NCBI RefSeq assembly: GCF_031202305.1
Contig: NZ_CP101731.1
Location: 3,598,501-3,662,500, forward strand
DNA: 64,000 bases
Direction: 5' to 3'
Origin: Pelagibacterium sp. 26DY04
GTDB taxonomy: Bacteria; Pseudomonadota; Alphaproteobacteria; Rhizobiales; Devosiaceae
In this document: in pieces, positions 2,381-24,993 of the stretch
Numbering within the stretch: position 1 is the first letter of the stretch
How the letters are laid out: each line of letters opens with the position of its first letter
Notes under the pieces: generated by a model
What the model saw: the letters and a program-made list of their open reading frames with translations, nothing else
The model's database searches: none
What the model was told of the DNA's origin: nothing
Made by a program: the position numbers and the translations under genes

Positions 2381-2400
2381 GATCCCCCCCAGATCTGCCG

Positions 2401-3201: not shown

Positions 3202-4577
3202 CGGCTGCGCCCACCCTGGCCCGGATTCCCCAGGGCCAGGGCCAGAAATGCCGCGAAAAACAAGGCATTGGCTTGTATTTCAAGTGAGAAATCGACCAGC
3301 GAATGCAGCCCCGCCGTTGCCGTCACCCCAAGCGCCACCAGCGGCAGCAGCCAGTCGCTTTGACGAGCGTGAAAGAGCACGGCACATCTTAATGCGATCA
3401 TTCCCACCACAAGCAGCGGAATGGAACCCGCGATGACCCCATAGTCGGCCCAGAGCGCCAGATAGGTCGAATGCGCCTTGTCCCACACAAGGTCCGGACT
3501 GACAGGAACCCGATGAAACAGCGGAAAGGCCACCTCGAAGCTTCCGCCGCCGAAACCGAGAAATGGGCGGGCGGCGATCATCTCGCCCACCTGCGCGTAA
3601 AGTGCCGCCCGGACATCGAAATCCCGCTCGACACTCCCAAGGCGCTCGGCCCACCCGGATCCAAACAGCACCGCTCCCAACCCCACGACGGCCAACGCCA
3701 AAAGCACCGTCCACACCGGCATGCCCGGATGCGTCCGCCCCATCTTGATCGCGAAACCACAAAGAACGATCAGGCTTCCGGCCAGCCCCGCCGCCACTCC
3801 CATGCGCGATTGGGTGAGATAGAGCGCTGCAACGAGAACCGCCAAACCAGTCAGGGACATCATCACACTGGCCGTCAACCGCGGGCGAGTCCGCGCGATA
3901 GCCTGCCCGGCCAGCCCTGTGCCCACGACCAGCCCGAAGGCGAGAAATGTGGCATAGGCGTTGCGGTTGACGAAGGTGCCGGTCGCCGAACCCGGATAAG
4001 CCCATTTCTCAAAGATCAGCACCGTATCGCCGAACTGGGTCAGCGCCACAAGCCCGTAGACGGCATGCGCCACGATCACCGCGAACAGTGCCCAGGCGAT
4101 TGTCTGCGCCCGACCCCGATTGGCCCCGACCTGCAATACGAGAAAGAAAAACACTCCCAGGGTGACGAACTGGACGAGCCCGAAAAGGCTTGCGCCCGGC
4201 GCGAGCGAGAGCACCGGTGCGGTCACGCCCCCATTGGGTCCGGCAAAATCGGTTTTGATGGGCAGCAGGATCTGAAGCGCCGCAAACCCGCAAAGCGCCA
4301 GCCACGGAACGGCAATTTCCGCCACCGCTCCAACCGGCACACGGAAGCTTTGGCGCCGCACCATGATCGCAATGCCGTAAAGCGCCCCCGCGCCGCCCAC
4401 CGCAACCGCGTTGATGGCCCAGAACACGGGACGGTTGGCGCCCAGCGGAATGGGAAGAACAAGCAGGAAGACGATCAACACAACCGCTGTCACCCGGTAG
4501 AGCCGCCGTCCCTCCCTCCTGTGGCTCACCCCCGAGTCCACGCGGGTCATTTCCAAGCCTGCCAGATTGATCGACAT
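3198..4577 (-). CDS. O-antigen ligase / Wzy-type polymerase family membrane protein
   Basis: This 459-residue protein is almost entirely hydrophobic helices, about 11-12 by eye. In the second half it has the large periplasmic loop of the Wzy_C family, containing GFGGGSFEV and then AHSTYLALWADYG. Members either polymerise lipid-linked repeat units (Wzy) or ligate finished glycan to an acceptor (WaaL). Sequence alone does not separate the two. Next to a Wzc-like protein, the polymerase role is more likely. The start at 4577 directly abuts the stop of the upstream small gene, and the 3' end overlaps the phosphatase ATG by 4 bp. Confidence 0.88.
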   Translation of the reverse strand: MSINLAGLEMTRVDSGVSHRREGRRLYRVTAVVLIVFLLVLPIPLGANRPVFWAINAVAVGGAGALYGIAIMVRRQSFRVPVGAVAEIAVPWLALCGFAALQILLPIKTDFAGPNGGVTAPVLSLAPGASLFGLVQFVTLGVFFFLVLQVGANRGRAQTIAWALFAVIVAHAVYGLVALTQFGDTVLIFEKWAYPGSATGTFVNRNAYATFLAFGLVVGTGLAGQAIARTRPRLTASVMMSLTGLAVLVAALYLTQSRMGVAAGLAGSLIVLCGFAIKMGRTHPGMPVWTVLLALAVVGLGAVLFGSGWAERLGSVERDFDVRAALYAQVGEMIAARPFLGFGGGSFEVAFPLFHRVPVSPDLVWDKAHSTYLALWADYGVIAGSIPLLVVGMIALRCAVLFHARQSDWLLPLVALGVTATAGLHSLVDFSLEIQANALFFAAFLALALGNPGQGGRSR

Positions 4578-5252
4578 CTAGCGCCTCGCCTCCGGCGCTT
4601 GAGAGCGCACCAGAGAGACGAACCGCTCCTGGATATCCTCGGGCAGGGTTTCGACAACCGCCGTCGCCCGTTCGCGAAATCCTGGGTTCGACACGTAGCG
4701 CGCAGCGACTGAACCGATGCCGCGTTCCGATCGCGCCAGAAGCGCCAGATCGTTCAAGTGTCCCGTCTGGCCATAAGCCCCAAGGATCTCATAATGGTCC
4801 TCGGCCAGCGCCACGCGCCGTTCGGCGATCCATTGTTCATTGGCGCCCACCCTTTGCGAACGCCCCAGCGCTGCGCCGGCCTCATCGCTCCGCCCCAGCG
4901 CAAAAAGCGCCATCGCCTCCACAAGATGTCCATAAGAAAGGCTCGGCATGGCGCCGGTCGCCTCCCGCGCCGCCTCCCGGCAATGGCTGGCGATGGCGGC
5001 AATTCTTCCGCTGGGGAAGAGCCGGAAACCCAGCGCGCCCATGGCCTCTTCGCAAATACGCAGCGAGACATTGGCGCCGAACACCGAGGGCGGAACCGGT
5101 GGTGCGTCCTCGGCGAGTCGGGCCAGGATTTGGGCGCTCGGCGCGAACGAAAACCGGAAAGGCGCAAGTTCACGCGCCGCAAGATACACCCCGCCTGCTC
5201 CCAGCAGCAGGGCCACCACGGTCAGCATCATCCCATTGACAACAGAAGACAT
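4578..5252 (-). CDS. Small membrane-anchored protein of the polysaccharide operon, unknown function
   Basis: The first gene of the minus-strand polysaccharide operon encodes 224 residues. There is one hydrophobic segment at about 8-26 (VVALLLGAGGVYLAA) and then a soluble, Ala/Arg-rich helical region. Helix pairs such as EAMALFALGRSDEAGAALGRS resemble a tetratricopeptide-like repeat. I do not recognise a named family. Similar small anchored proteins sit next to O-antigen ligase genes in other polysaccharide operons, so a scaffolding role is plausible. Its stop codon directly abuts the ligase start, so the two are translationally linked. The promoter should lie in the 193-bp divergent region shared with the cysteine peptidase gene. 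Confidence 0.7.
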   Translation of the reverse strand: MSSVVNGMMLTVVALLLGAGGVYLAARELAPFRFSFAPSAQILARLAEDAPPVPPSVFGANVSLRICEEAMGALGFRLFPSGRIAAIASHCREAAREATGAMPSLSYGHLVEAMALFALGRSDEAGAALGRSQRVGANEQWIAERRVALAEDHYEILGAYGQTGHLNDLALLARSERGIGSVAARYVSNPGFRERATAVVETLPEDIQERFVSLVRSQAPEARR

Positions 5253-5285: not shown

Positions 5286-5304
5286 CCCGGATCACACATC
5301 CGGG
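5286..5304. promoter_or_regulatory. Inverted repeat in the divergent region
   Basis: CCCGGAT and ATCCGGG are perfect 7-bp arms around CACAC. The repeat sits 34 bp upstream of the minus-strand operon start and 142 bp upstream of the peptidase gene. It could be an operator or a 5' hairpin. It is a short motif and could be chance. Confidence 0.3.
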
Positions 5305-5445
5305 GTCAAGCGCCGCCGACATAGCGGGATCGATATGATGTTCCCCCGATGGGCAGCAAATTGTTTCCGATTACCCTGCAAGATGACGGCAAGCCGATTC
5401 ACGCCGGCGCGGCCAGCTATCCGCTCTCAGTTGGAGACACGGACG

Positions 5446-6027
5446 ATGCGTATCCCCTCATTGGCTCTCACCACTGCTCTGGCACTGGCCGCCGCCCTTG
5501 CCAACCTCTCCGCCAACGCCCAGACAATTCACCCTGCCGACCATGCCGGCCCCGTCCCGGCAACGCAGATCGTCACATCCTCGGCCACGCCTGCCCCCCT
5601 CGGTCTGCAAATCTTCTGTCTGCGCGAGCCTACTCATTGCGCCGCTGCGCCCGCCACCGCCCTAGAGATGGATCAAAGGCTGATGAACCTGCTCGCCTCG
5701 GTCAACCGCGAGGTCAATGCCGCCATCCGCCCCCGGATGCGCTCAACCCAGGTCTGGGAGCTCGGTGCCCAAACTGGCGATTGCAAGGATTACGCCATGA
5801 ACAAGCGTGCCGAGCTCATCGCCCGCGGCGTCCCCGCCGGCGCCCTGCGCCTGGCCATCGGGCTCACCGCCCAGGGCGAGGGCCATGCGGTGCTGATCGT
5901 GCGCACCACCGTCGGCGACTATGTCCTCGACAATCTCACGGCCCAGATCCTGCCCTTCAACCAGACCGGCCACACCCTCACCGCCATCTCCTCACCCGAC
6001 CCAAAACGCTGGAACAGAGTGGCTTAG
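5446..6027 (+). CDS. LapG-like transglutaminase-type cysteine peptidase (BTLCP family)
   Basis: The 193-residue periplasmic protein has a clear signal peptide (residues 1-25, cleavage after ANA). The papain/transglutaminase triad is visible: Cys113 in GDCKDYAM, His147 in GEGHAVL and Asp162 in VLDNL. This is the bacterial transglutaminase-like cysteine proteinase family (formerly DUF920). Its characterised member LapG cleaves surface adhesins under c-di-GMP control. The frame is open further upstream, but the ATG at 5446 starts the signal peptide. A degenerate GGDEF-EAL gene follows 95 bp downstream, as expected for a LapG/LapD-like pair. Rhizobiales carry several BTLCP copies, so the target protein is uncertain. 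Confidence 0.87.
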   Translation: MRIPSLALTTALALAAALANLSANAQTIHPADHAGPVPATQIVTSSATPAPLGLQIFCLREPTHCAAAPATALEMDQRLMNLLASVNREVNAAIRPRMRSTQVWELGAQTGDCKDYAMNKRAELIARGVPAGALRLAIGLTAQGEGHAVLIVRTTVGDYVLDNLTAQILPFNQTGHTLTAISSPDPKRWNRVA

Positions 6028-6095
6028 AGCCCCAAAACATTTGCATCAGATTCACTGTGCTTATTGAGGAGTGTTGCAAACTGGGCGCTTGGATG

Positions 6096-6122
6096 ATCAC
6101 CCTAGGCTGAATTGAGGGTGAT
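6096..6122 (+). promoter_or_regulatory. Hairpin that sequesters the ribosome binding site of the GGDEF-EAL gene
   Basis: ATCACCCT and AGGGTGAT form a perfect 8-bp stem with an 11-nt loop. The right arm contains the Shine-Dalgarno sequence (GAGGGTGAT) and ends on the base before the ATG at 6123. In the mRNA the stem would hide the ribosome binding site, so translation could be controlled by temperature, a small RNA, a protein or read-through from the upstream gene. Confidence 0.55.
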
Positions 6123-7640
6123 ATGACCGGTCCAAAGGCATCCCGATCAGCGGCTCGCAACACGCCACCGCGACGCGTCCCCTGGACGGCGGGCGTGGCT
6201 GTCGCTGTGGCGGCGATGGCTGGTGCCATACTGGCCGGCCAAGGGCCGCTCGCCATTGCTGCCCTTGCCCTGACCGGCGGAGTTCTTACGGCAATCGTCA
6301 TCGCTCGCCTCGGTGCAGCCCAGGGTGGCGCGCATGCCGAGAAGATCGATGACGAGCGGACGCCGGCTCCCCGGTTCCGCGAACTCTCCTCGTCCACGAC
6401 CGATCTCGAACGTGCGCTCGACCGTGAGCTTGCCGTCGCGCCTGCTTCCGAAGTGTCGGTGCTTTCGATCGCCATCGATGGGCTCGGCGATATCGAACGC
6501 GACCTCGGCAGCCATGTGGTCCAAGCCGTCAGCACAGAAGTGGTGGCCCGCCTCAGAACCCTGATCAGAGCCGACGATCCCCTCTTTGTCGGCGATGGCG
6601 CAATTACCTTCGTGATGCGCAATCGGCCCAGCCATGCCGACGACGTGGCGGTTGCACGGCGGCTGATCACGGCCTTTACCGCGCTGGTTCCCATCGCCGC
6701 CGAGCATGTCAAGGTTTCGCTCAGCATCGGAATTGCGGACCACCGTTCCGGAAGCGGGGATGCCGGCACGCTCCTGCGCCGCGCCGAGATCGCGCGCTAC
6801 GAGGCCCAAAGGCTCGGCGGGGAGTGCCACGTGACTTATTCCGAGCAATTGGACGACCGGCTCGGCATCCGCGCCCGCCTCGCCATCGAGCTTGGCGGCG
6901 CCATTGCACAGGGCAACCAGCTCAGCCTTGTCTATCAGCCGATCTTTGGAAGCAATGGCACGGAAATCATCGGCGCCGAAGCCTTGCTGCGCTGGAACCA
7001 TCCCGTTCACGGTCGGCTCGACACCCGCCTTTTGATCGAAGTGGCCGAAGCCGAGGATTTGATGCAAACCCTCGGCCAATGGATACTCGATGTGGTGATC
7101 ACAAGGCTGAGCCAATCCAGTATCGGCTGGCTCTCGGTCAACATTTCGCGCCATCAGCTCCATGCCGCCGGATTTGTCGACGATCTCAGGGCGCGGCTCG
7201 AACGCGCCGGCATATCGCCTCACCGGCTGCAATTCGAAATCTCGCGACAAGCCGTCGAGGATCCCGAGATCGCCGCCACGCTGTCCGCGCTCCGCGCCCT
7301 CGGCATCGAACTGACTTTCGACGCCGATTTCGAAACGCCAGAGCAATTGCTCGACTACGATTGGACAGCCCTGGCCCAGTCTCCCCTCGATTGCATCAAG
7401 CTTCCCGCCCTTGCCATGGGCTCGGGGGAGGATCTGACCACCCAGGCCCGGCTGTGGGGCGCGGCAAGCCAGGTGCGCACCATGGGACTGGTGCTGGCCG
7501 CCAAGAACGTCGAAACCCCGTTCCAGCATGACGTCTTTACCAAGTTCGGCACCGCGCGGTTTCAGGGGCACTATTACGCACCGCCCATGACCGCTCTCAG
7601 CATCGACACCCTGCTCCCCCCCTCGCAGATCGCCATCTGA
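6123..7640 (+). CDS. Membrane protein with degenerate GGDEF and degenerate EAL domains
   Basis: This 505-residue protein has two N-terminal membrane helices (about 21-38 and 43-61) with almost no periplasmic segment between them. A GGDEF-like domain follows, in which the GGDEF signature is replaced by VGDGAITFV, so cyclase activity is unlikely. The EAL domain keeps EALLRW (Glu286), VNIS and a C-terminal FQGHYYAP. However, the DDFG metal motif has become ADFE and AEGVE has become AKNVE, so phosphodiesterase activity is doubtful. Such doubly degenerate proteins often act as c-di-GMP receptors, like LapD. Unlike LapD, this one lacks the periplasmic output domain and a HAMP helix. It lies just downstream of the LapG-like peptidase. 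Confidence 0.88.
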   Translation: MTGPKASRSAARNTPPRRVPWTAGVAVAVAAMAGAILAGQGPLAIAALALTGGVLTAIVIARLGAAQGGAHAEKIDDERTPAPRFRELSSSTTDLERALDRELAVAPASEVSVLSIAIDGLGDIERDLGSHVVQAVSTEVVARLRTLIRADDPLFVGDGAITFVMRNRPSHADDVAVARRLITAFTALVPIAAEHVKVSLSIGIADHRSGSGDAGTLLRRAEIARYEAQRLGGECHVTYSEQLDDRLGIRARLAIELGGAIAQGNQLSLVYQPIFGSNGTEIIGAEALLRWNHPVHGRLDTRLLIEVAEAEDLMQTLGQWILDVVITRLSQSSIGWLSVNISRHQLHAAGFVDDLRARLERAGISPHRLQFEISRQAVEDPEIAATLSALRALGIELTFDADFETPEQLLDYDWTALAQSPLDCIKLPALAMGSGEDLTTQARLWGAASQVRTMGLVLAAKNVETPFQHDVFTKFGTARFQGHYYAPPMTALSIDTLLPPSQIAI

Positions 7641-7696: not shown

Positions 7697-8833
7697 CTAG
7701 ACCACCATCTTGCTCCGTTCGAGTTCGCCAAGGCTGCGTTCCGCCCCATCGGTGGGCAGCGATTGCGCGGCGACCCAGCCCACCAGTTCCTCCATGCCGC
7801 TGTCGAAATCGCGCCGGGGACGAAAGCCAAAGGTTTTCGCGATCTTGCCGATATCGGCATAGCAATGCCGGATATCGCCGACCCGGTACTTGCCGAGGAC
7901 ATGGGGGGCGATGTTCTTGCGAAGGAGCCGCGCCAGCGTATGTGCGATGGTATTGACCGAAACGGCGGTCCCGCTCCCCACATTGAAGGCATCCCACACA
8001 TCCGATTGCGAGGTCATCACGGTGGCGAACGCCTCGGCCACGTCCCTCACATGCACGAAATCGCGCATCTGTTTGCCGTCTTCGAAAACCAGCGGCGCGC
8101 GGTCGTTGAGAAGGCGAGAGGCAAAAATCGCCGCGACACCCGTATAGGGATTGGACAGCGCCTGCCTGGGGCCATAGGCGTTGAACAGCCGCAGCGCGAC
8201 CGTTGGGATGCCGATCGCGCGGCCCACCGAGAGGAACATCTCCTCATGGTCTCGCTTGTTGACGGCATAGATCGAAGCGGGCTGGAGCGGCTTTGTTTCC
8301 CGTGTCGCGATCGGGGTCAATGTTTCCCCGTTCTGCTGCACTTCCCATTCGCCGCGCTGCAGCCGCTCCAGCGGCCGCATTTCGGCGATCGCCGGCTTGC
8401 CACCGCACGTTAGATACTCGCCCTCGCCATAGATCGACATGGAGGACGCCACAGCCATCCGCTGGACGCCGTGCCCGCCCTTGGCCAGCACCTCGAGCAC
8501 ATTGGCGGCCGCCAGCGTGTTGTTGCGGGTATAGTCGACGATATTGGTCATGGACTGGCCAACCCCCACCGAGGCGGCCAGATGCACGAGATGGGTCACG
8601 CCCGTAAGCGCCGCCGCAAAGGCGCGCTGATCGAGCACATCGCCCTTGATGCGGCGCGCCCTGGGGTTGAGATAGCGTGGCCAGCCCTCGCCGTCCTTTT
8701 CGATCTCGCCATGAACCTGGGGCAAAAGGCAGTCAAAGACTGTGACGGCAAATCCGCGTTCGATCATCACATCGGCAAGGTGCGAGCCGATGAACCCTGC
8801 CCCGCCTGTAATCAGCACATGTTGGTTACGCAT
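7697..8833 (-). CDS. NAD-dependent nucleotide-sugar epimerase/dehydratase (extended SDR)
   Basis: The 378-residue extended short-chain dehydrogenase has the NAD-binding GGAGFIGSHL motif near residue 9 and an active-site YAVNK (YxxxK), with an ASSMSIYGEGEY block before it. It shows a substrate-side RLFNAYGPRQ and a C-terminal HVRDVAEAF. The SSMSIYGEG form resembles dTDP-L-rhamnose/6-deoxy-talose type 4-epimerases rather than GalE, but the exact sugar cannot be assigned. The frame is open to 9193, which lies inside the GT2 gene. The ATG at 8833 begins at the Rossmann fold and overlaps the GT2 stop by 8 bp. It is the last gene of the UDP-xylose operon. Confidence 0.85.
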   Translation of the reverse strand: MRNQHVLITGGAGFIGSHLADVMIERGFAVTVFDCLLPQVHGEIEKDGEGWPRYLNPRARRIKGDVLDQRAFAAALTGVTHLVHLAASVGVGQSMTNIVDYTRNNTLAAANVLEVLAKGGHGVQRMAVASSMSIYGEGEYLTCGGKPAIAEMRPLERLQRGEWEVQQNGETLTPIATRETKPLQPASIYAVNKRDHEEMFLSVGRAIGIPTVALRLFNAYGPRQALSNPYTGVAAIFASRLLNDRAPLVFEDGKQMRDFVHVRDVAEAFATVMTSQSDVWDAFNVGSGTAVSVNTIAHTLARLLRKNIAPHVLGKYRVGDIRHCYADIGKIAKTFGFRPRRDFDSGMEELVGWVAAQSLPTDGAERSLGELERSKMVV

Positions 8834-10337
8834 TGGAATAGACCTTGGGTTGAAGCGATGGAGAGTGTTCTGCCCTTGGCAGCGCCGGAATGGCTTCAGG
8901 AACCGCAACGGGCTGGGAAACGCCGCGAGGGATAAGCACCGCGCGGATAAGGGAATGATTGGCATCGGTCTTTTCGGTCCTCTCCCAGACCAGCCCCTGG
9001 TCGAGCAGGAACATGCGCAGTCCGATAAATAGCGGCACCAGCCAGACGAACCACCAGGCCAGAACGAAGAGCGGATTGACCCGAAAAAGATACAGCGCCC
9101 GCTCGCGCCGGCTCTTGAGCACGAGTTTCGACCGCACCCAGGTGCGGGCGTAAACTCCGCCCAGAAGCCCCAGAAACAGCACGCCATTGACAAGTCCGAG
9201 CAGCAGCATCCAGTGCGGCAGCGCCAGATGGCCGGAGAAATATTGCCACGTCACATAGACAGCCAGCGGCCAGCCCACCGAATTGAGCCATAGCGACAGG
9301 CAGGGCACGAAATTGAGCCGGGCCAGAAACCGCTGCCGCGGGCTCATCCCCATCTCGACAAGCGGTTGCGCTAGGCTCTGGAAAAAGCCCGCGACCCAGC
9401 GCTTGCGTTGCGTGATCCCGTGGGCAAAAGTCGAAGGCACTTCTTCGATCAGCGGGTTCTCGATAACGCCAAGGCGCCTGCCATGGGCCCAGAACCGCAT
9501 GCCCACTTCCGGATCCTCGATGGTGATCCAAGGATTGAACCCGCCCAGTTCGGTGAGGTCAGAGGCCTTGAAAAACAGCCCCTTGCCGAGCACCCAATAG
9601 GGGTGAGCGCCATTAGCCGACAGATGGGGATAGATATGCCCGTCCCAGGCCATATGGTCGAAGGCGTGCCAGCTTGCGGCAAGACTGGCGTTGAGATTGC
9701 CGGCGATATTTTGCGCCTGCAGCACGTCGTAGCGCCCGATCCCCGCCGCCGCAGCGCGGAAATGGTCAGCAGGCGGGCAGCTATCGGCGTCGATATAGTT
9801 GACGAGAAAATCGTCCAGATGATCGAGCTGCTTGGCCATCGTGTAGAAGGCATAGACGAGCTGGCGAGTTTTCTTGGGCGGCAGCGCCCTGGTCCCGGCC
9901 CGCGCGCCCCGATGCCACCAATAGGCGTGAGGCGACCTGTTCCAGCCGTCCCAGACAACCTGCCAACTCGGATGCGAGGTCGGAGGAACTTCGAGCAGTT
10001 CGAGAAACGGGAATTCCCCTTTAAGCCTTTCAAGGCTTGCGACGGTCGCCAGATCGTCGGCGTTGGGGATGGCCACCACCTTGAACCGGCTCTTGGGATA
10101 GTCGATGCGTTCGAGCGTCAGAAACGTCGTGCGCATCGTGGATTCGAGTTCGCGCAGGACCGGGTAGAAAAGGACGATATAGGGCAGCCTGTGGTCGGGC
10201 TTGCCATAGCCCTCACGCACGTCGACGAAATTCACGGGCCGCGTGAAAAGGTAGAGCATCACCAGCATCGAGCCGAAATAGGCGATCTGGACGCTCGCAA
10301 AGAACAGGGCGAAAAAATCGAATTCAAAACCGGTCAT
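8826..10337 (-). CDS. Membrane glycosyltransferase family 2 (cellulose-synthase-like fold)
   Basis: This 503-residue inner-membrane GT2 has one N-terminal helix (about 8-32), a cytoplasmic GT-A domain and several C-terminal helices (about 340-450). Visible GT2 motifs are IPNADD near 91, DAD at 183-185, ED at 274-275 (TIEDPEVGMR) and QRKRW at 310-314, equivalent to the D,D,D,QxxRW set of processive synthases. The gene lies between UDP-xylose synthase (89 bp upstream) and an epimerase (8-bp overlap). A UDP-xylose-using polymerase or a transferase of a derived sugar is therefore a reasonable inference. No PilZ domain is visible. Processivity and donor are not proven. Confidence 0.88.
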   Translation of the reverse strand: MTGFEFDFFALFFASVQIAYFGSMLVMLYLFTRPVNFVDVREGYGKPDHRLPYIVLFYPVLRELESTMRTTFLTLERIDYPKSRFKVVAIPNADDLATVASLERLKGEFPFLELLEVPPTSHPSWQVVWDGWNRSPHAYWWHRGARAGTRALPPKKTRQLVYAFYTMAKQLDHLDDFLVNYIDADSCPPADHFRAAAAGIGRYDVLQAQNIAGNLNASLAASWHAFDHMAWDGHIYPHLSANGAHPYWVLGKGLFFKASDLTELGGFNPWITIEDPEVGMRFWAHGRRLGVIENPLIEEVPSTFAHGITQRKRWVAGFFQSLAQPLVEMGMSPRQRFLARLNFVPCLSLWLNSVGWPLAVYVTWQYFSGHLALPHWMLLLGLVNGVLFLGLLGGVYARTWVRSKLVLKSRRERALYLFRVNPLFVLAWWFVWLVPLFIGLRMFLLDQGLVWERTEKTDANHSLIRAVLIPRGVSQPVAVPEAIPALPRAEHSPSLQPKVYSNA

Positions 10338-10426
10338 GAAATCCTCCCGTTAGGCGGCGACGGGGCAAAGCCTCGCCGCTCCGCCCAAGCGGGTTCGTGT
10401 TCTTACAAGCAGACGGAAGCGTTCGA

Positions 10427-11476
<1,050 letters not shown>

Positions 11477-11487
11477 GATGAGCTCCC

Positions 11488-12087
11488 CTATCGCAGCGCT
11501 TGCGCGAGTTCGTTGACGACATGTTCGGGCAGTACAGCCAGGCCCGCTTGCGCGGCCCCGGCCGCCGGTTGGCTCGGCCAGCCCTCGAGAGGCGGCGCGG
11601 CGACCACCGCGTGGCCCTGTTCGTAGACCGGCAACAACCCGGCCTGGAACGCGACGTCGACGTTCTGCCCATGCGCGATGGCGGTCAGCTCGCCGCCGGT
11701 CCGCATAGCTCCATTGACCGCGACCGATCGGATGAACAGGTTGCGGTCGTGCCCATGCCCCTCATCGACATACCGGTCATTGGTGAGCGAGATCGAGATG
11801 TCGGCGAACGGATCGAAGCGGTTCTCGGGGATGGTGAATTCGAAATTTTCAAGGTAGCCGAGCGGCTCGGCGCTCAGATACAGTCGTCCCTCGGTCTTGG
11901 TATCGAGCGGGCGGGCCAGCCTGCCGCTGGCGATCACGATGCCGCCCATGCGCACTTCGAAAACCGGCGCCCCATCGAAGGCTTCGCCGGCGAGCGAGAT
12001 GGCAAGGGTACTGTTTTCCGCCTTGGCGGCTGCGGCCGCGCCAAGCGCGACGATCAGCGCTGTGGAAAATATCGCCAGTTTGTTCAT
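11488..12087 (-). CDS. Secreted protein with xylan-binding (CBM36/CBM60-like) module
   Basis: This 199-residue exported protein has a signal peptide at 1-23 (cleavage near AKA-EN). Residues about 25-130 form a beta-rich module: [12 protein letters not shown], a central strand block, then [25 protein letters not shown]. That layout matches the Ca-dependent xylan-binding CBM36/60 family, where the TND and DRN acidic residues bind Ca2+ that contacts the sugar. The C-terminal 60 residues are Ala/Pro-rich and unassigned. A GAGGAGA ribosome binding site precedes the ATG at 12087; the open frame upstream has no signal peptide. As first gene of the UDP-xylose operon, it probably binds the product glycan. 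Confidence 0.75.
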
Positions 12088-12204
12088 TTCCAGTCTCCTC
12101 GACGTCGGCTCCTGGAGGATGCCATGTGTGAAGTTGCTGGAAATGTTGGCGAATTCGCCGTCTAAGACACAATCGTCAATCGGAGCTAACCCCATTGATC
12201 TAAT

Positions 12205-12228
12205 TGTCAGGCCATATGGCCTCTGACA
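12205..12228. promoter_or_regulatory. Nested palindrome between the CBM and xylanase genes, candidate operator
   Basis: Outer arms TGTCAG and CTGACA enclose the centre GCCATATGGCCT. The core AGGCCATATGGCCT (12209-12222) is itself a perfect 14-bp palindrome. It lies 36 bp before the xylanase ATG in a 176-bp divergent region, where a dimeric regulator could control both the xylanase and the UDP-xylose operon. Confidence 0.5.
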
Positions 12229-12263
12229 CCGTCGCGCTCGCATGAATCTTGGTGATTTGAATT

Positions 12264-13439
12264 ATGCGACACCGCCACTTTCGCTATAGCCGGCGCCGCT
12301 TCCTGTCTTCGGCGGCCGCGGTTGCGGTACTGCCGGCGTTTTTCGTTTCCGGCTGCGGCATGGCCGACCAGGCACATCAATCCGGGCAAACCGGCACGAA
12401 TGCGCTTGCGTTCCAGGAGCCATCGGCTTCGACCCCGCTCAGCGTCGAAGCGGCACGGGGTCGATTGCGGTTCGGAACTGCGGTGCATGACAACGTAATC
12501 CGTCCCGGCTCCCAAAGCCGCTCGATCATCGCCGCGCAATGCTCCTCGGTGACCCCCGAATGGTCGCTCAAGTGGAATTCGCTGGCTCCCCGGCCCCATA
12601 CCTACAACTTTGCCGGCGCCGATGCGTGCTCGAGCTTTGCCGCATCCCAAGGTCTCGCCATGCGCGGACACACCCTGCTCTGGCATCTGGGCACCCCCGC
12701 CTGGGCCGAAAGGCTGATCGCCGACACAAGGGAATGGGAGCATGTCGATAACCATATCGCGCGCGTGGTCTCCCGATACCGCTCGCGCGTCCGCGAATGG
12801 GACGTGATCAACGAGCCGATCTCCGGCCGGGGCGACGGAGATCTCAGGGCCAATCAGTTCCTTGCCGCCTTCGGCCCGGACTACCTCGATTGGGCCTTTC
12901 ATTCGGCCGCCCGATACGCGGACGGGGCCGATCTGTTCCTCAACGAATACGGGCTCGAATACGCCAACCCCGAGGATTCGCGCAAACGCCTCGCCCTGCT
13001 GCGGGCGGTCGAAGGCCTGCGCAATCGCGGCGCCCCGATCACCGGGGTGGGGCTGCAGGCCCATCTCGACCTGCGCAAGGGCAATATCTACCAGAACGGG
13101 GTCTACGGCCTGGTGCGCGACCTCACCGATATGGGCCTCAAGGTCGCGGTCACCGAGCTCGACGTGCGCGAGAGCGATACCCGCATGTCGCTCAATCGGC
13201 GCGACTCTCTGGTTGCCGACACCGTGCACCGCTATCTTGAAACCGTGCTGCAATTTCCGTCGGTGGAGTCGGTCTCCACCTGGGGGTTGAGCGACGCCCA
13301 TTCCTGGCTGCTCTACCATGATGGCGGCCACCCCGATAATCGCGGCCTGCCCTATGATCGGCAGTGGCGTCCCAAACCCATGCGCGCAACGATCGCTTCG
13401 CTTTTGGGCCAATACCGGCCCGACATCGTCAGCCCGTAA
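12264..13439 (+). CDS. GH10 endo-beta-1,4-xylanase, Tat-type lipoprotein
   Basis: The 391-residue GH10 enzyme cleaves beta-1,4-xylan with retention. The acid/base is Glu184 in WDVINEP and the nucleophile is Glu298 in VAVTELDV. HTLLWH (136-141), GVGLQAHL and WGLSDAHSW complete the GH10 active site. The N-terminus has a twin-arginine motif (SRRRFLS, 9-15) followed by a lipobox FVSGC with Cys31, so the enzyme is probably exported folded and then lipid-anchored. It is divergent from the xylan-binding protein/UDP-xylose operon and its 3' end overlaps the convergent SARP-type gene by 11 bp. The setting suggests it trims or releases a self-made glycan rather than degrading plant xylan. That is inference. 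Confidence 0.93.
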   Translation: MRHRHFRYSRRRFLSSAAAVAVLPAFFVSGCGMADQAHQSGQTGTNALAFQEPSASTPLSVEAARGRLRFGTAVHDNVIRPGSQSRSIIAAQCSSVTPEWSLKWNSLAPRPHTYNFAGADACSSFAASQGLAMRGHTLLWHLGTPAWAERLIADTREWEHVDNHIARVVSRYRSRVREWDVINEPISGRGDGDLRANQFLAAFGPDYLDWAFHSAARYADGADLFLNEYGLEYANPEDSRKRLALLRAVEGLRNRGAPITGVGLQAHLDLRKGNIYQNGVYGLVRDLTDMGLKVAVTELDVRESDTRMSLNRRDSLVADTVHRYLETVLQFPSVESVSTWGLSDAHSWLLYHDGGHPDNRGLPYDRQWRPKPMRATIASLLGQYRPDIVSP

Positions 13440-14199
13440 GCGCGCTCACCAGATTGGCATAGAGCTTGCGGGTTTCCGACGAGATCGACACTCCAAGCTC
13501 GCGCTTCATCTCGGCCTCGCACTTTTGGTAGATCTGTTCCAAACGGGCCAGATTGTTGTGGTCTGCGGCATCGAGCATCAGCAACCGATACGCCTCTTCA
13601 TTGCACGGATCGACAGTGAGGATTTTCTGGGCCAGCGCGAGCTGCCCGCTTCTGTTGCTGGGGGAGGTCCCGTTGCGCGTCAGCTCCTCGGCCAGCCGAT
13701 CGATATGCCGGCTGCGCAACATGGCGCGCTGTTCGGCCAGCCAGTCCTCGAAGTCCGGGCCGGTATTTTTGAGGTCCGCGAGCAATTCCCCGGGATATTC
13801 ACCCATGGGGTTCCCGCTCGAAAGCGTACGCAGATAGTCCCACAGATCCCAGGACACATTGGCGGTTTTGTTGAGATAGACAGTATTGAAATTGGATTGG
13901 ATGAGGGAAAAGCCAAGGCTGGCCTGCAACTCGCGGATGCGCGCGATCGAACGGCGCAGATTGGCCGCGGCGCGCTCGGCATCTCCATCCTCGGACCACA
14001 GGATCGAACGCAAGCGCTGGCGCGAAACCGATTCCTGGCGACCAGACAAAAGCAGGAAGGCGGCGATTTTGTAGAATGATGAAGGAACGCCCGAGATAAG
14101 CTGCCCATCGACAAGGATGGCACATGTTCCCAGCATCCCTATGTGGATGCTTTTGTTCTTGACGACCGGCATGTGTTGGTTATCCCCAAACCCATGCAA
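13429..14199 (-). CDS. SARP-type transcriptional regulator with bacterial transcriptional activator domain
   Basis: The 256-residue protein has an OmpR-like winged helix at about 15-105 (KIAAFLLLSGRQESVSRQRL, then the AAANLRRSIARIR recognition region). A BTAD-like helical repeat domain follows at about 110-250 (PGELLADL, FEDWLAEQRAML, CNEEAYRLLMLDAA). SARP-type activators are typical of actinobacterial antibiotic clusters, but short forms occur in Rhizobiales polysaccharide loci. The ATG at 14199 lacks a clear ribosome binding site. An ATG at 14172 preceded by GGGGA is an alternative. It faces the GH10 gene and lies downstream of the LuxR-type gene, so it may control the xylose-polymer genes. 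Confidence 0.75.
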   Translation of the reverse strand: MHGFGDNQHMPVVKNKSIHIGMLGTCAILVDGQLISGVPSSFYKIAAFLLLSGRQESVSRQRLRSILWSEDGDAERAAANLRRSIARIRELQASLGFSLIQSNFNTVYLNKTANVSWDLWDYLRTLSSGNPMGEYPGELLADLKNTGPDFEDWLAEQRAMLRSRHIDRLAEELTRNGTSPSNRSGQLALAQKILTVDPCNEEAYRLLMLDAADHNNLARLEQIYQKCEAEMKRELGVSISSETRKLYANLVSALTG

Positions 14200-14322: not shown

Positions 14323-14811
14323 TCAGGCGACAGCGGTGTTGCGCGTCTGGAGAAAATCATGGATCAGCCGATTGGTGACGACCAGCTTTTCGATTGCTTC
14401 CGATAACTTCTGGAATTCCTGGCTATCGATCGGCTCGGCTTTTCCGTAACGAACGCTCGACCCGAAATCGGCAATCCGCAGCAATTCGGTCCTGTCGATG
14501 TCCCCGCTCTCGTTGAACGAGAAGATGGAGTGGCTGTATTTGTTGCGCAGCTTGGAGATGGCTTTCATGGCCGCCGCCATGGCGAGGATCTCGTCGCGGT
14601 CCGCCGGGTTGACCCCACCCAGCTTGGCCAGCCTTTCGATCAGGTCGAGCCGCGCGCGCGTCGTATTGAGGGTGAGGTAGGTGACGATCGCCACTTCCTT
14701 TTCGACGCGCATCAGATAGGCCATCACGTCGATCAGCAGGCTTTCGGTGTTGCTCCAGGTGTAGGTCAGCTTGCCGATCAGGAGCAAAAGCGCTTGCGTC
14801 TGACCTCCCAT
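14323..14811 (-). CDS. Helical protein of unknown function with HEPN-like RNxxxH motif
   Basis: The 162-residue protein is predicted mostly helical, with no signal peptide or membrane segment. I do not recognise a family with certainty. Around residue 95 it has LRNKYSH, matching the Rx4-6H motif of HEPN domains, with the surrounding pattern (N-terminal helix pair, then the RNxxxH helix) also consistent. HEPN proteins are often RNases or nucleotide-binding helpers, but many single-domain homologues are just helical folds. The start lies 12 bp after the LuxR-type gene on the same strand, so the two are co-transcribed. A link to control of the polysaccharide locus is positional only. Confidence 0.6.
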   Translation of the reverse strand: MGGQTQALLLLIGKLTYTWSNTESLLIDVMAYLMRVEKEVAIVTYLTLNTTRARLDLIERLAKLGGVNPADRDEILAMAAAMKAISKLRNKYSHSIFSFNESGDIDRTELLRIADFGSSVRYGKAEPIDSQEFQKLSEAIEKLVVTNRLIHDFLQTRNTAVA

Positions 14812-14823
14812 CGCGACCTCCGC

Positions 14824-15597
14824 CTATCGGCCGGTGACGGCAAGGTTGGGCGACCCTGTCCGATAGGGCAGACCATGGAAGGCCGCGGCCGCCTGGGTGC
14901 GATTGGTCACGTTGAGCTTGCTCATCAGATTGTGCACATGCACCTTCACCGTATGTTCGGAAAGGCTCATGCGATCCGCAATCAGCTTGTTCTGCAGCCC
15001 TTGGGCGACCAGGGAAAGAATCTGCCGCTCGCGCGCCGTCAGTTCCGCGAGCTGGTTGACGTTGACCTCCTCGACCGAGGGGACGGGCGGTTTTGCCGCG
15101 GCAACCCGCCCGAGCGGCAGGCTCGCCTGCGTCCCGTGCCCCTGAGGCCGAGGAAAGAACTGCCCCCCGCTCAGCAGCAGCGAGATCGCCGCCATCAGCA
15201 CTTGCAGCCGCAGATTGAGCGGCAGGCACCCCTGCAGTTGCGGTGCATCGCCATAGGCGCCGAGATTTTGTCCGTCCTCGGGCTTTTCAACCAGTACGGC
15301 AACCGCCGCGTCGGGCAGAATCCGGTGCAAATAGGTAAGGTCGCGCCAGCTTTCGGCGCAATCGCGTTCGTAGATGAGCACCAGATCGGCAGGCGCTTCC
15401 CTGCCTTCGATCTCAGCCATGTCTTCGACGATATCCACCTGAGCGTTGGCCAGATGATTGTCGATCAGCCGGCCGAGGCTCTCAAAAAGCGCGTTCCGCT
15501 GGGCGATGATGATAATGCGCCAGCTCACCGCTCCCACCGATGTCTCCACCCGCCTCTCATAGGAGGCTTCCAGACGTTGCATCTCTTCTTCCCCCAC
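14824..15597 (-). CDS. LuxR-family transcriptional regulator
   Basis: The 257-residue regulator has a C-terminal LuxR/NarL helix-turn-helix at about 185-245: LTARERQILSLVAQGLQNK, then SEHTVKVHVHNLMSKL. The N-terminal part is receiver-like in shape (IIIIAQRNALFESLGRLI, DLVLIYERD, AVAVLVEK). However, it lacks a clear phosphoacceptor aspartate in the expected place, so it is probably an atypical receiver or ligand domain. It is transcribed away from the type I secretion operon, sharing a 623-bp intergenic region with it. It also heads the string of genes leading to the SARP regulator. Confidence 0.85.
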   Translation of the reverse strand: MGEEEMQRLEASYERRVETSVGAVSWRIIIIAQRNALFESLGRLIDNHLANAQVDIVEDMAEIEGREAPADLVLIYERDCAESWRDLTYLHRILPDAAVAVLVEKPEDGQNLGAYGDAPQLQGCLPLNLRLQVLMAAISLLLSGGQFFPRPQGHGTQASLPLGRVAAAKPPVPSVEEVNVNQLAELTARERQILSLVAQGLQNKLIADRMSLSEHTVKVHVHNLMSKLNVTNRTQAAAAFHGLPYRTGSPNLAVTGR

Positions 15598-16220
15598 ACC
15601 AAAATTAACCTGTGTAAATCTCTTTTGACCATCTGGTCGAAAGTTAAGAATGTGTTACCAGCCAAGGCGTGACTCGACCGTGACTCTGTTCGTTTTCGGC
15701 CGCGCGGGTACATAAGTATCTATTCTTAAAAACCTTTTCGGATGGCCTTGCTGTCGGGAACGGCAAATTAACGCGTCGGCGAAGTGGCCTTCAAATTTAA
15801 AGATGGCCATTTTCACGAATGCGTGAACAAGATTTTGCCGCGCCGGCGCCATTTTCTCGCTCCTTGGATTTAGCGTAGCCGTCCAAAAGGGGGCCGTCTT
15901 CTAGGCCCTTTGATCGCAACGCCCATAACAATTTATGAGAGGGCTGCCCGAGATCGCGGATCCGGAGCGCTCGCCCCATACCAATTGCCTAGGACTCTAA
16001 TCCGTTTAGGTAGCCGCATCTAAGTCAGGCCGCGCTCTGCCTGCGCCTTGGTTTTAGCTCCAATTGTCGTCTTATCTGTACGCGGTTCCGTGGGCATCCT
16101 CGCCGTGTTCGCCGCTCTCGCAATGGCAGTGGCAACGCCAACCGCGACCTACGGGACTTAACCTCGTAAGAAATGTCAGAGGTTCTCCCGCCGGCGCATA
16201 ACCAACTGAGGAGAACACCG
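15598..16220. other. 623-bp non-coding divergent region
   Basis: No credible gene is visible; short frames here have no ribosome binding sites or recognisable proteins. The left end (15600-15780) is AT-richer than its surroundings and probably holds the LuxR-gene promoter. An imperfect inverted repeat, TTTGACCA/TGGTCGAAA (15624-15642), lies 27 bp before that gene. On the right, AACCTC and GAGGTT (16160-16184) could fold into a leader hairpin in front of the acidic-protein gene. The length suggests long 5' untranslated leaders or a small RNA, but I cannot identify one. Confidence 0.5.
15624..15642. promoter_or_regulatory. Imperfect inverted repeat upstream of the LuxR-type gene
   Basis: TTTGACCA and TGGTCGAAA are separated by TC, with one mismatch. 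The repeat sits 27-45 bp upstream of the LuxR-type start, the usual place for an autoregulatory LuxR operator. Function is inferred from position only. Confidence 0.3.
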
Positions 16221-17255
16221 ATGCCTTACGGCGCTGACGAAAACAACGGCATCCAGGATGCCTCCAACTCGGGCACCATGCTCGAAGGCAGCGAATTCAA
16301 CCAGACCGGCAATTTCGGCAACGACCAATCCGCCGACGGCTCTGACAATTCGTTCAACCTCGATAAGTCCGTCGATGTCGATGCTTCGGCTGACGGTTCG
16401 GACAACTCCAAGAACTGGTCGAACCAACAGTCCTTCGCCCTCGACAAGTCGATCGATGCCACCTTTGAAGACAACGACGACAATTCGGACACCAACTCCC
16501 ACAACTACAGCAATGATGAATCGACCGATGTCGACGTTGCTGTGGAGGATGCGTTCAACGACAAGTCCACTACCACCCAAACCCAAGACAACGATACCGA
16601 CGTCGATGTCGCTGTGGAGGATGCGTTCAATAACAAGTCAACCAATGACTCGAACAACGACAATTCGGACAGGTCTGACCACAACTCCCACAACGACAAC
16701 TCCGAGTCTATCGATGTCAGCCTTCAGGATGCCCTGAACGACAAGTCGATCGACGACTCGTACAACTCGGTCAGCAACGAAACCACGACCGATGTGGACG
16801 TAGCCATCACCGACGCCTTCAAGTCGCACAGCGAAAGCTATGACAACGCTTTCAACGACTCGAGCGAGAGCTTCGGTGAGATCTCGGTCAACTTCGAGAA
16901 CGTCTTCAACGGCGCTTTCGGTGCGGGTGCTGGTGACGGCTTTGCGGTCAACCAGGTCGCCGATATTGTCGACAATGACGCTCTGCAGGATGTGACGCAG
17001 AACAATGGCGGCAATTTCAACATGCAGGCCGGGGGCAATGGCGCGAACCAGTGGGATGCGGTGATCGATCCGTTCTCCGGTGGCGCCGACGGCGACGGGA
17101 CCACGGTTGCCGATGCCGGCATCCAGCTCCAGGGCACCGCGTTCAACCTCGACATCGTTCTCGGTTCCAACCTGCAGCAGAACGCCGTCGATATCTCGAT
17201 CGTTGGCGGTTCGACCGACAACGACACGATCACGACCAGCGGCGACAGCTTCTGA
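16221..17255 (+). CDS. Acidic repeat protein, probable type I secretion substrate
   Basis: The 344-residue protein is extremely rich in Asp, Asn and Ser, almost without Lys, Arg or Cys, and has no signal peptide. The middle carries repeats built on TDVDVAVEDAFN(D/N)KS (twice nearly exactly, then SIDVSLQDALNDKS and TDVDVAITDAF). The C-terminal 100 residues are Gly/Asn-rich, beta-prone and lack positive charges, like a type I secretion signal region. A TGAGGAGA ribosome binding site sets the start at 16221. It is the first gene before a second repeat protein, an ABC exporter and an HlyD adaptor. Classic GGxGxD RTX repeats are absent. Function is unknown; a matrix or surface protein is plausible. 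Confidence 0.8.
   Translation: MPYGADENNGIQDASNSGTMLEGSEFNQTGNFGNDQSADGSDNSFNLDKSVDVDASADGSDNSKNWSNQQSFALDKSIDATFEDNDDNSDTNSHNYSNDESTDVDVAVEDAFNDKSTTTQTQDNDTDVDVAVEDAFNNKSTNDSNNDNSDRSDHNSHNDNSESIDVSLQDALNDKSIDDSYNSVSNETTTDVDVAITDAFKSHSESYDNAFNDSSESFGEISVNFENVFNGAFGAGAGDGFAVNQVADIVDNDALQDVTQNNGGNFNMQAGGNGANQWDAVIDPFSGGADGDGTTVADAGIQLQGTAFNLDIVLGSNLQQNAVDISIVGGSTDNDTITTSGDSF
16524..16827 (+). repeat. Internal coding repeats of the acidic protein
   Basis: Two 44-bp units (16524-16567 and 16596-16639) are nearly identical and lie 72 bp apart; both encode TDVDVAVEDAFN(D/N)KS. Two diverged copies follow at about 16710-16747 and 16791-16827. The near-identity of the first pair suggests recent duplication and possible length variation. 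Confidence 0.8.
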
Positions 17256-17272
17256 TCGCGACAACGTTCCGG

Positions 17273-17296
17273 CCCCGCGCAGACCGCTGCGCGGGG
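17273..17296 (+). terminator. GC-rich stem-loop between the two secreted-protein genes
   Basis: CCCCGCGCAG and CTGCGCGGGG form a perfect 10-bp stem with an ACCG loop, 18 bp after the acidic-protein stop. There is no T-tract, so it may attenuate transcription or block 3' exonucleases, leaving more of the first transcript than of the exporter genes downstream. Confidence 0.6.
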
Positions 17297-17336
17297 TCAC
17301 CGGCGTTGATGCGGCCGAAACGGGGAGGGAGCGACG

Positions 17337-19283
17337 GTGTTTTCCAATGGCGACTACCTGACCGAAACCATCGCCCACTTCATTGGCCATTTCGATATGG
17401 CCGTTGAAGCGGCCCGCCTGCGCCAGGCCTACGACCCCTTCAAGGCGCCTTCGAACGAAGGCGATCCTGCTCCTGCCCCCACGGCTGCCGCGCTTCCCTT
17501 CACGCCTCCCGAGCTGGTCTTCGGCTATGATCCCAGCGTGGGCTGGCGCGCGCCCTCCGATGAGGGGATGATGTCGGCCGCAAAGCCCTTCTTTCGCTTC
17601 GAGCCTCCCACTCTGGAGTTCACGCCGGACACACTGGGCACGGCGCAATCCCATACGACCCTCGGGTTCTCGGGCGCCAGCGATATGGGTCCGCTGCTCG
17701 GCCCCCCGCCGCCCTCGATGATCGCCGTCGTCCAACAGCACCAGTTTCTCTTCGACAACGACGTCGTTGTGATCGGCACCCCTGATTTTGCCATCCCCGC
17801 GCCGACCGACACCGCATCCGAGCTGGCCGTGCTCAAGGCCCAGGCTGCCCAAGCCGGCGGTCCGCTCGCCAACAATCCCATCGGCTTTTCCGAAGCGGCG
17901 GTCGCCCCTTGGGTCCAAGCAACGCTCGATACGATCGCCACGGTCGAAAACCCCACGGCGGCCGGAGAAAACCTCTCGGGCGTCTGGGTCGATGGCCAGG
18001 TGTACGAGGAGGCGCCCGACCTCGACGATCACCTTCCGGCTACCTGGAAAGACCAGGAAGAGCCCGAACCCTCGTCAATGCCGATCCGGATCGATGCGTC
18101 CGAAACGCCAACCACCATGGAAGCCGACGCCGGCCACAACCTCGCGATCAACCAGGCCACCATCGTCAATGCCGGCCTCACCGGCACCGTGATCGCCGTT
18201 TCGGGCAATTCCTACGAACTGGACGTCATCGTCCAGACCAATGTGCTCGCCGACGTCGACGCCATTGCCGCCGATTTCCCCCTCGCTGCCGCCAACGATC
18301 TGGCCAATGTCACCACCAACATCGCCACCTTCGTCACCGAAACCCGCGACGCCGGTGGGGAGAAGGCTGAGCTCAACCCCGATCTCGTCCCGCTCAATTG
18401 GCAGGTGAGCGTAGTCGAAGGTGACATGATCTTTTTCGAATGGATCCAGCAATACACCCTGCAATCGGACAATGATTGCCTAGTGATGACCGCGACCGGC
18501 ACCACCACCACGGTGAGCACCGGCGCCAATGCAAGCTTTAACGGCGTTTCGCTGTCCGATCTGGGCGCGATGTACGATCTGATCCTGATCGGCGGCAATC
18601 TCTACGACGTCAACTACATCACCCAGACCAACATCCTCTACGACAACGACACGATCTCGAGCCACGGAGCGACCGGGGGCAACACCGGCTCGGTGGCAAC
18701 GGGCGGCAACCTGCTCTGGAACCAGGCCTCGATCCACAATGTAGGACCGGCAAACTGGACCCAGGGCCTTCCCGATCATTACCTCACCGCCTTCGAGGGT
18801 TTCGGGAACGGGGACTATTCGATGCCCGCCGGATTTGCCCATGACGGGATGTATGCGGGCGATCAGGTGCTCAACGTCCTCTACATCTCGGGCAACATCT
18901 ACGACGTCAACTACGTCAGCCAGACCAACATCTTGACTGACGGCGACCAGGTGATCCTCTACACGGATCAAGCCGGCAAGACAGGCGATTGGCAGATCAC
19001 CACGGGCGGTAACGTGCTGGTCAACGCCGCCGGCATCGTTGACAGCGATTCCAATGGCTCGACCTGCTATGTCGGCGGGGAATCCTATTCGGAAGCAATG
19101 CTGATCCAGTCCGGCATCGTCGATGGCCAGCCGCTGGCACCCTCCTCCCCCGACACGCTCGCCAACGAAGTCATCGCCTTTCTCGATGAAGACGAGGGAG
19201 CGGACGATGCTCTCGACTCCCAGCCCATCGGCAATGTTTCGCCCGGCCCGACTTACGACGTCATGGACCACGTTCTCGCCTGA
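17337..19283 (+). CDS. Large secreted repeat protein, unknown function, probable type I substrate
   Basis: The 648-residue acidic protein has no signal peptide or cysteine-rich part. The start is a GTG at 17337 behind a strong GGGAGGGA ribosome binding site. Residues 1-260 are Pro/Ala-rich with no known domain. From about 265 on there are repeated beta units ending in variants of GNxYDVNYxxQTNILxDxD (near 290, 425 and 525) and blocks starting ATGGN or TTGGN. The second and third copies are close at DNA level too (18595 and 18892 regions). TAAG occurs at residues 207-210, the tetrapeptide cut by LapG in LapA, although four residues can match by chance. The exporter genes follow directly. Confidence 0.78.
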   Translation: MFSNGDYLTETIAHFIGHFDMAVEAARLRQAYDPFKAPSNEGDPAPAPTAAALPFTPPELVFGYDPSVGWRAPSDEGMMSAAKPFFRFEPPTLEFTPDTLGTAQSHTTLGFSGASDMGPLLGPPPPSMIAVVQQHQFLFDNDVVVIGTPDFAIPAPTDTASELAVLKAQAAQAGGPLANNPIGFSEAAVAPWVQATLDTIATVENPTAAGENLSGVWVDGQVYEEAPDLDDHLPATWKDQEEPEPSSMPIRIDASETPTTMEADAGHNLAINQATIVNAGLTGTVIAVSGNSYELDVIVQTNVLADVDAIAADFPLAAANDLANVTTNIATFVTETRDAGGEKAELNPDLVPLNWQVSVVEGDMIFFEWIQQYTLQSDNDCLVMTATGTTTTVSTGANASFNGVSLSDLGAMYDLILIGGNLYDVNYITQTNILYDNDTISSHGATGGNTGSVATGGNLLWNQASIHNVGPANWTQGLPDHYLTAFEGFGNGDYSMPAGFAHDGMYAGDQVLNVLYISGNIYDVNYVSQTNILTDGDQVILYTDQAGKTGDWQITTGGNVLVNAAGIVDSDSNGSTCYVGGESYSEAMLIQSGIVDGQPLAPSSPDTLANEVIAFLDEDEGADDALDSQPIGNVSPGPTYDVMDHVLA

Positions 19284-19304
19284 GTACCTGAAAGGCCTCC
19301 TGCA

Positions 19305-23948: not shown

Positions 23949-23964
23949 GGGTCCTTTGGCAGGT

Positions 23965-24912: not shown

Positions 24913-24993
24913 GGATGATTGCCCTGGCTGAACCGTTTCTCGATTCAGCCTCATCTAGTCGCGCCAGATGACAGTTATGTAACAACGCCCAAT

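Follow-up and report, generated by a model that had tools for sequence, protein, structure and literature searches.

A predicted xylanase gene that lies beside genes for polysaccharide synthesis raises the question whether its product degrades plant xylan or belongs to a system with which the bacterium makes a glycan of its own. This question was addressed for a locus of Pelagibacterium sp. 26DY04, analysed within a stretch of 64,000 nucleotides (positions 3,598,501 to 3,662,500 of the 3.89-Mb single-contig genome), referred to as the window. The locus comprises a minus-strand operon encoding, in this order, a CBM60-like protein, a UDP-xylose synthase (UXS), a GT2 glycosyltransferase and an epimerase, and a divergent GH10 gene on the plus strand. 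The initial annotation of the window had taken these genes for a candidate system that synthesizes and trims a xylan-like exopolysaccharide (EPS). With considerable confidence, the locus is regarded here as a dedicated polysaccharide system. Of that proposal, the grouping of the genes, the synthase-type GT2 and the GH10 as its partner stand; xylose or a beta-1,4-xylan in the polymer is plausible but unproven.

Gene content of the cluster

The five genes were assigned as follows (aa, amino acids).

7697 to 8833, minus strand: SDR-family nucleotide-sugar epimerase, 378 aa (PF01370, 153.9 bits)
8826 to 10337, minus strand: membrane GT2 glycosyltransferase, 503 aa, candidate polymerase (PF13632, 89.9 bits)
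10427 to 11476, minus strand: UDP-glucuronate decarboxylase (UXS), 349 aa (367 bits to the human UXS1 structures 4gll/2b69 over residues 15-331)
11488 to 12087, minus strand: secreted CBM60-like protein, about 199 aa, signal peptide recognized by eye (PF16841, 29.3 bits against a cut-off of 28.2)
12264 to 13439, plus strand: GH10 glycosidase, 391 aa, with a twin-arginine motif and a lipobox (SRRRFL...FVSGC; PF00331, 240.3 bits against a cut-off of 22.1)

All five lie where they had been placed at the outset, with a gap of 11 bp between the CBM60 and UXS genes, a gap of 89 bp between UXS and GT2 and an overlap of 8 bp between GT2 and epimerase. The end coordinate given at that time, 14199, includes the gene of a BTAD-domain regulator (13429 to 14199).

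The D,D,D,QxxRW-type motifs reported for the GT2 were located at D95, D183-A-D185, E274-D275 and Q310xxR313W314 and are invariant in 24 aligned sequences. Structure prediction, which the initial annotation had proposed as a check, gave a synthase fold whose membrane part aligns to BcsA. Motifs and modelled fold are those of a membrane polysaccharide synthase of the processive GT2 class (BcsA/HAS/CesA). The protein scored 33.2 against the BcsA equivalog TIGR03030 (cut-off 699.1), and no PilZ match was found in it at 0.01 in the profile search. That the GT2 is instead non-processive, transferring xylose or arabinose onto a lipid carrier, lipopolysaccharide or the neighbouring Asp/Asn-rich proteins, with the GH10 trimming the glycoconjugate, is improbable given the invariant QxxRW and the alignment of the membrane part to BcsA. 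An endo-acting GH10 would also need at least short chains, and no type I secretion system occurs in the DNA examined at the Eremiobacterota and Chloroflexota loci.

Both catalytic glutamates claimed for the GH10 were found, E184 (in WDVINEP) and E298 (in VTELD), and both are invariant in 75 aligned GH10s. By regular expression only, and with some start codons uncertain, a twin arginine was detected in 12 of 15 aligned GH10s and a lipobox in five of them. At the gene level, the GT2 model and the export motifs of the GH10 thus agree with the pairing of an inner-membrane synthase and a periplasmic hydrolase, the locations at which the two proteins would act.

For the CBM60-like protein, scores of homologues to PF16841 were 36.9 (L023) and 25.4 (L017, below the cut-off). 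An AlphaFold model (pLDDT 78.6) had the CBM60 structures 2xhh and 2xfd as its sole Foldseek matches under 0.001 (E 1.2e-4 and 2.1e-4), and an ND...DRNL motif is invariant in seven aligned CBM60-like sequences. The family and fold of the predicted binding module are thereby upheld. Its original label as xylan-binding is weakened, since one of the two scanned homologues falls below the cut-off and one of the two fold matches, 2xfd, is a cellobiose complex.

Conservation of the cluster in related genomes

The GT2 family is rare. It was found in three of 385 sampled alphaproteobacterial genomes and in 11 of 136 Devosiaceae genomes, the host genome being counted in both; within the Devosiaceae set, 11 genomes of the same genus are listed without the GT2 and one (G672) with it. 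Despite this rarity, the distribution extends from Devosiaceae to Eremiobacterota, Chloroflexota and Deltaproteobacteria. When plasmids were searched with the GT2, there was a single strong match, in Rhizobium sp. BG4, besides nine weak ones. A UXS/epimerase operon of Sinorhizobium meliloti, considered as a possible close relative, was set aside on this result.

The neighbourhood comparison was based on 27 loci besides the window: 24 of the 25 obtained from a scan of genome contigs, the one of Rhizobium sp. BG4 and those of two further genomes. A locus with a GT2 fragment (L041) was left out of the counts, and L048, from the same species as L018, lies outside the 27. Several of the 27 are close relatives, and five of the Devosia type resemble one another. 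Within 6 kb of the GT2, the epimerase (at 40% identity or more) was present in 26 loci, UXS in 18, UDP-glucose dehydrogenase (UGD) in 15, GH10 in 16 and CBM60 in six. The six CBM60 loci are from Devosia and one Hyphomicrobiales metagenome-assembled genome (MAG), and three further Devosiaceae loci also carry the module.

When three loci with a long GH10-like protein (L037, L040 and L046) are added, a GH10 or GH10-like protein lies near the GT2 in 19 of the 27. The long type also occurs in L038, already among the 16. Its three complete copies measure about 700-725 aa, align at both glutamates and carry CarboxypepD_reg domains; the fourth (L037), cut by a contig end, scored 22.2 to PF00331 (cut-off 22.1) and 411 bits to a profile built from these complete copies. 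The long type ranges from Chloroflexota to Alphaproteobacteria. In the GT2 tree these four loci form one clade (100/100), which indicates that type of glycosidase and lineage of synthase tend to be inherited together. A PD40 propeller protein is encoded close to the GT2 in L037, L038 and L046, the loci of this group in which it was looked for.

Among the remaining eight loci, two are cut by contig ends (L022 and L034). The cluster of L026 possibly extends onto L083, a fragment from that genome which holds an epimerase end and a GH10, L025 has a related GH10 on another contig (L081), and in L036 a GH8 gene adjoins the epimerase in place of GH10. No GH10 was found at L024, L039 and L047. Loci that lack GH10 and CBM and keep the other genes had been named beforehand as evidence against the proposal. 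Such loci form a minority as far as GH10 is concerned, these three, and CBM60 was seen in six of the 27. Overall, the comparison showed that the genes belong together in a cluster conserved across several phyla.

A dedicated branch of GH10 glycosidases

In a tree of 75 GH10s, the 23 linked to the GT2 form one branch (100/98; 99% of 200 bootstrap trees) that excludes the 52 others, of which 12 are from Devosiaceae genomes without the GT2. This supports the GH10 as a dedicated partner of the GT2. L081 was labelled as GT2-linked although it stands on a separate 4.6-kb contig, and L083 is linked only through the epimerase fragment on its 3.4-kb contig. Both GH10 trees omit L018, which is of the same species as L048, and the GH10-like proteins of L040, L037 and L046; the 75-member tree also omits two GH10-like open reading frames of L038 and L074, which were too divergent. 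In the earlier tree L038 fell outside the branch, and the GT2 label then required two changes.

In the Devosiaceae set, nine of the 11 genomes with the GT2 have a GH10 at 1-4 kb from it. As to the exceptions, the sequence of G617 (L022) ends beside the cluster, and in G621 (L024) the gene is truly missing from the locus, with no GH10 in 10 kb on each side. Among the 125 Devosiaceae genomes without the GT2, a strong GH10 was found in 13, 12 of which were fetched for the tree, and nine more gave only a weak short match. By genome, a GH10 occurs in 20 of 24 GT2 genomes, including some in which it is distant from the GT2, and in 27 of 385 sampled genomes (Fisher p 1.8e-17, a value that ignores relatedness and unequal sampling).

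Degradation of plant xylan by the GH10 and CBM60 proteins, with the GT2 operon adjacent by chance, was one alternative considered, as both families are best known from that process. It is now extremely unlikely and was rejected: the cluster is conserved, the GT2-linked GH10s stand apart even from those of the 12 Devosiaceae genomes without the GT2, and the adjacency recurs in several phyla. Nor was any other GH10 found in the host genome by a six-frame search with PF00331, a search that missed the long GH10-like protein of G201 (36.8 bits when scanned) and whose negative outcome is therefore not proof of absence. Together, the conserved cluster and the single branch point to a dedicated polysaccharide system and not to scavenging of plant xylan.

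Several other features of these genes were recorded. The nearest outsider to the branch, and its sister, is the GH10 of L111 (G659, Devosiaceae), which directly adjoins a UXS gene and a Wzz/BYK-like gene. Two loci, L042 (plasmid pRPC1 of Rhizobium sp. BG4) and L023, carry two GH10 genes each, flanking the operon; those of L023 belong to separate halves of the branch. In alphaproteobacteria and Nostoc, further GH10 'xylanases' have Wzz/BYK-like or flippase genes nearby (L082, L084-L086, L053, L054, L064, L075, L096 and L099); these fall outside the GT2-linked branch. A 'TPEW' motif was considered as a marker of the GT2-linked GH10s and rejected, as the W at this position is also present in six of the 52 others.

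Nucleotide-sugar supply

The TSEVYGD and YDEGK active-site segments of the UXS align with human UXS1. No NCBIfam equivalog reached its cut-off; the identity of the enzyme is firm from its 367 bits to human UXS1. A second UXS gene is present elsewhere in the host genome. Of 28 GT2 genomes, 22 were searched genome-wide, and 19 of these contain a UXS at 1e-60 or better; the exceptions are Reyranella massiliensis and two small genomes, 1.6 and 1.4 Mb in size, whose titles mark them as MAGs. A UGD gene is absent from the host operon; the genome's sole strong match lies beyond the window, some 17 kb away from the GT2. In 12 of the 27 related loci UGD is placed between UXS and GT2, and in three more upstream of UXS; the same-genus locus L112 (G672) also has it between UXS and GT2.

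The epimerase, the most constant partner of the GT2, scored 133 against the GalE equivalog TIGR01179 (cut-off 262.3), and comparison with solved structures or NCBIfam did not settle its substrate. It may resemble enzymes annotated as dTDP-L-rhamnose 4-epimerase.

Flanking genes

Outside the five-gene cluster, the following features were assigned.

13429 to 14199, minus strand: BTAD-domain regulator, a conserved neighbour in Devosiaceae, with homologues adjoining the cluster (PF03704, 36.9 bits)
14323 to 14811, minus strand: conserved protein of 162 aa, no Pfam match at 0.01, with homologues encoded close to the cluster in Devosia, Aureimonas and Reyranella
14824 to 15597, minus strand: LuxR-family regulator, with homologues adjoining the cluster in Devosiaceae (PF00196, 78.6 bits)
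16173 to 22945, plus strand: Asp/Asn-rich protein, repeat protein and type I secretion ABC/HlyD pair (PF00005/PF13437)

Genes similar to those at 16173 to 22945 stand next to the cluster in Devosia, Aureimonas and Reyranella, as well as in L112, the locus of the same genus. In L017, L018, L028-L030, L048 and L112 the cluster is flanked by genes for an Asp/Asn-rich protein, a further repeat protein and/or an ABC/HlyD pair of type I secretion, and the secreted Asp/Asn-rich protein may partner the polysaccharide in a matrix. Further right, at 23058-24954, are two tandem GT8 glycosyltransferase genes, 58% identical.

To the left, positions 230-5252 and about 10 kb beyond (L049) hold Wzz/BYK, O-antigen-ligase-like and phosphatase genes, together with mannose-nucleotide and flippase-like genes recognized by eye. 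Judged by gene content, this is a separate EPS locus of the Wzx/Wzy type. Its proximity, and the occurrence of other GH10s in flippase- or Wzy-type clusters (Nostoc, Methylosinus), would suit an arrangement in which the operon is a side branch of that locus and the GT2 helps to build its repeat unit. This is very improbable: tblastn detected no homologue of the BYK/Wzz, phosphatase or ligase-like genes of the window in the DNA around 24 relatives' loci, at most 10 kb on each side, and GH10s near Wzz/BYK-like genes fall outside the GT2-linked branch. Between these EPS genes and the GT2 cluster, at 5300-7640, a BTLCP protease gene (PF06035) adjoins that of a GGDEF-EAL protein. In Caulobacter, a transglutaminase homologue, HvyA, is reported to restrict capsulation (PMC4241560).

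Proposed function and points against it

The locus is probably a synthase-dependent EPS locus in which the GT2 polymerises a glycan of xylose and/or an epimerised sugar and the GH10 trims it. UGD, encoded elsewhere in the genome, and UXS would make UDP-xylose. The epimerase would probably convert a nucleotide sugar of the pathway, for example UDP-xylose to UDP-L-arabinose. The BcsA-like GT2 would then polymerise a beta-linked glycan that includes xylose, the epimerised sugar or both and pass it through the inner membrane, and the exported GH10 (Tat motif, lipobox) would trim or release the cell's own glycan in the envelope in the manner of the GH8 BcsZ, as its dedicated co-inheritance suggests. 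The CBM60 protein would bind the glycan outside the cell. Xylose, or a sugar derived from it, is a likely constituent of the polymer. A beta-1,4-xylan-like backbone is proposed only tentatively.

A number of observations weigh against this reading. The Asn at the -2 subsite, which has a role in well-studied xylanases, is lost in all 23 GT2-linked GH10s, where W, I, F, L or Y stands in its place (Trp in the window GH10); 22 of the 52 outsiders keep it. The epimerase is a more constant partner of the GT2 (26 of 27 loci) than UXS (18 of 27). Reyranella massiliensis has GT2, epimerase and GH10 without a UXS at 1e-60 (its best UXS relative, at 40% identity, lies some 14 kb away from the GT2), and L114 (G566) has GT2, epimerase, UGD, CBM60 and GH10 with no UXS in the 20 kb fetched. 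Apart from one MAG, CBM60 is confined to Devosiaceae, and three GH10s of another branch, not linked to the GT2 (L109, L110 and L115, Devosiaceae), have weak CBM60-like matches (50-64 bits) at a distance of 5-7 kb. GH10 genes also occur in other EPS clusters, by annotation in Nostoc and Methylosinus and near Wzz/BYK-like genes. A further EPS cluster with a GH10 gene makes promonan in Sphingomonas sp. LM7: in the available part of that report, the polymer consists of glucose, glucuronic acid and galactose, without xylose, and deletion of the GH10 gene had no visible effect (PMC11340318). A GH10 beside EPS genes does not, then, imply xylan.

Much of this would also fit the same synthase system with a non-pentosan backbone, a hexose or uronic-acid glycan built from the epimerase product, in which xylose is minor or unrelated and the GH10 branch has been retuned. 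The replacement of GH10 by GH8 in L036 points the same way. Such a backbone is the less likely reading, as UXS lies beside the GT2 in 18 of the 27 loci and UGD in 15, and as the 23 GT2-linked GH10s retain the catalytic residues and most of those at the -1 subsite (K50 is kept in 19 and differs in four).

Comparison with known systems

A synthase encoded with its own hydrolase is a known kind of system. PNAG (pga), Pel and Psl are secreted polysaccharides made along with a trimming hydrolase, with hydrolase families and sugars different from those of the window. The closest layout is that of the cellulose operon (bcsABZC, BcsS), in which a membrane GT2 with D,D,D,QxxRW is likewise accompanied by an endo-beta-1,4-glycanase. 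Cellulose-type genes appear in relatives, with BcsS beside the cluster in Brevundimonas (L035) and GH8 in Ktedonobacteria. Unlike in that operon, the GT2 is far under the BcsA cut-off and has no PilZ match, GH10 takes the place of GH8, and UXS, UGD and the epimerase are added. Neither BcsB nor BcsC was recognized in the cluster of the window, nor was an outer-membrane TPR/porin export protein; L037 has a TPR match and, below the cut-off, a match to the PgaA barrel of the PNAG system (25.9 against 27).

The promonan (prm) cluster resembles that of the window in combining a GH10 gene (prmN) with GT2 genes and differs from it in being Wzx/Wzy-dependent and in its sugars, according to the part of the report available (PMC11340318). 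GH10s near Wzz-like genes lie outside the GT2-linked branch; prmN itself was not placed in the tree. Possible xylan-like polysaccharides have been mentioned for the EPS of cyanobacterial mats, in the available part of one source (PMC12555021).

In plants, xylan synthesis draws on UDP-xylose from UGD and UXS, as would be the case here, and the backbone enzymes are of families GT43/GT47, not GT2. Among the matches listed in a search of the open-access literature, no report was found of a cluster of GT2, epimerase, UXS/UGD and dedicated GH10, or of a bacterial xylan synthase.

Significance

It is conceivable, if as yet speculative, that the cluster represents a widespread undescribed bacterial pentosan, made in several phyla by a GT2-family synthase of xylan or an arabinoxylan-like polymer, which has its own source of UDP-xylose, an epimerase and a dedicated GH10. 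If so, a cellulose-synthase-like enzyme would make a prokaryotic equivalent of plant xylan, with a GH10 xylanase as a partner in synthesis and not a scavenger. To our knowledge, pentose polymerisation is known only for plant and algal enzymes of other families, and the locus offers a compact GT2 candidate for this reaction. Genes annotated as 'endo-1,4-beta-xylanase' in bacteria that do not degrade xylan would then serve the synthesis of their own surface polymer, and genomic GH10 counts would overstate the capacity for plant-biomass degradation.

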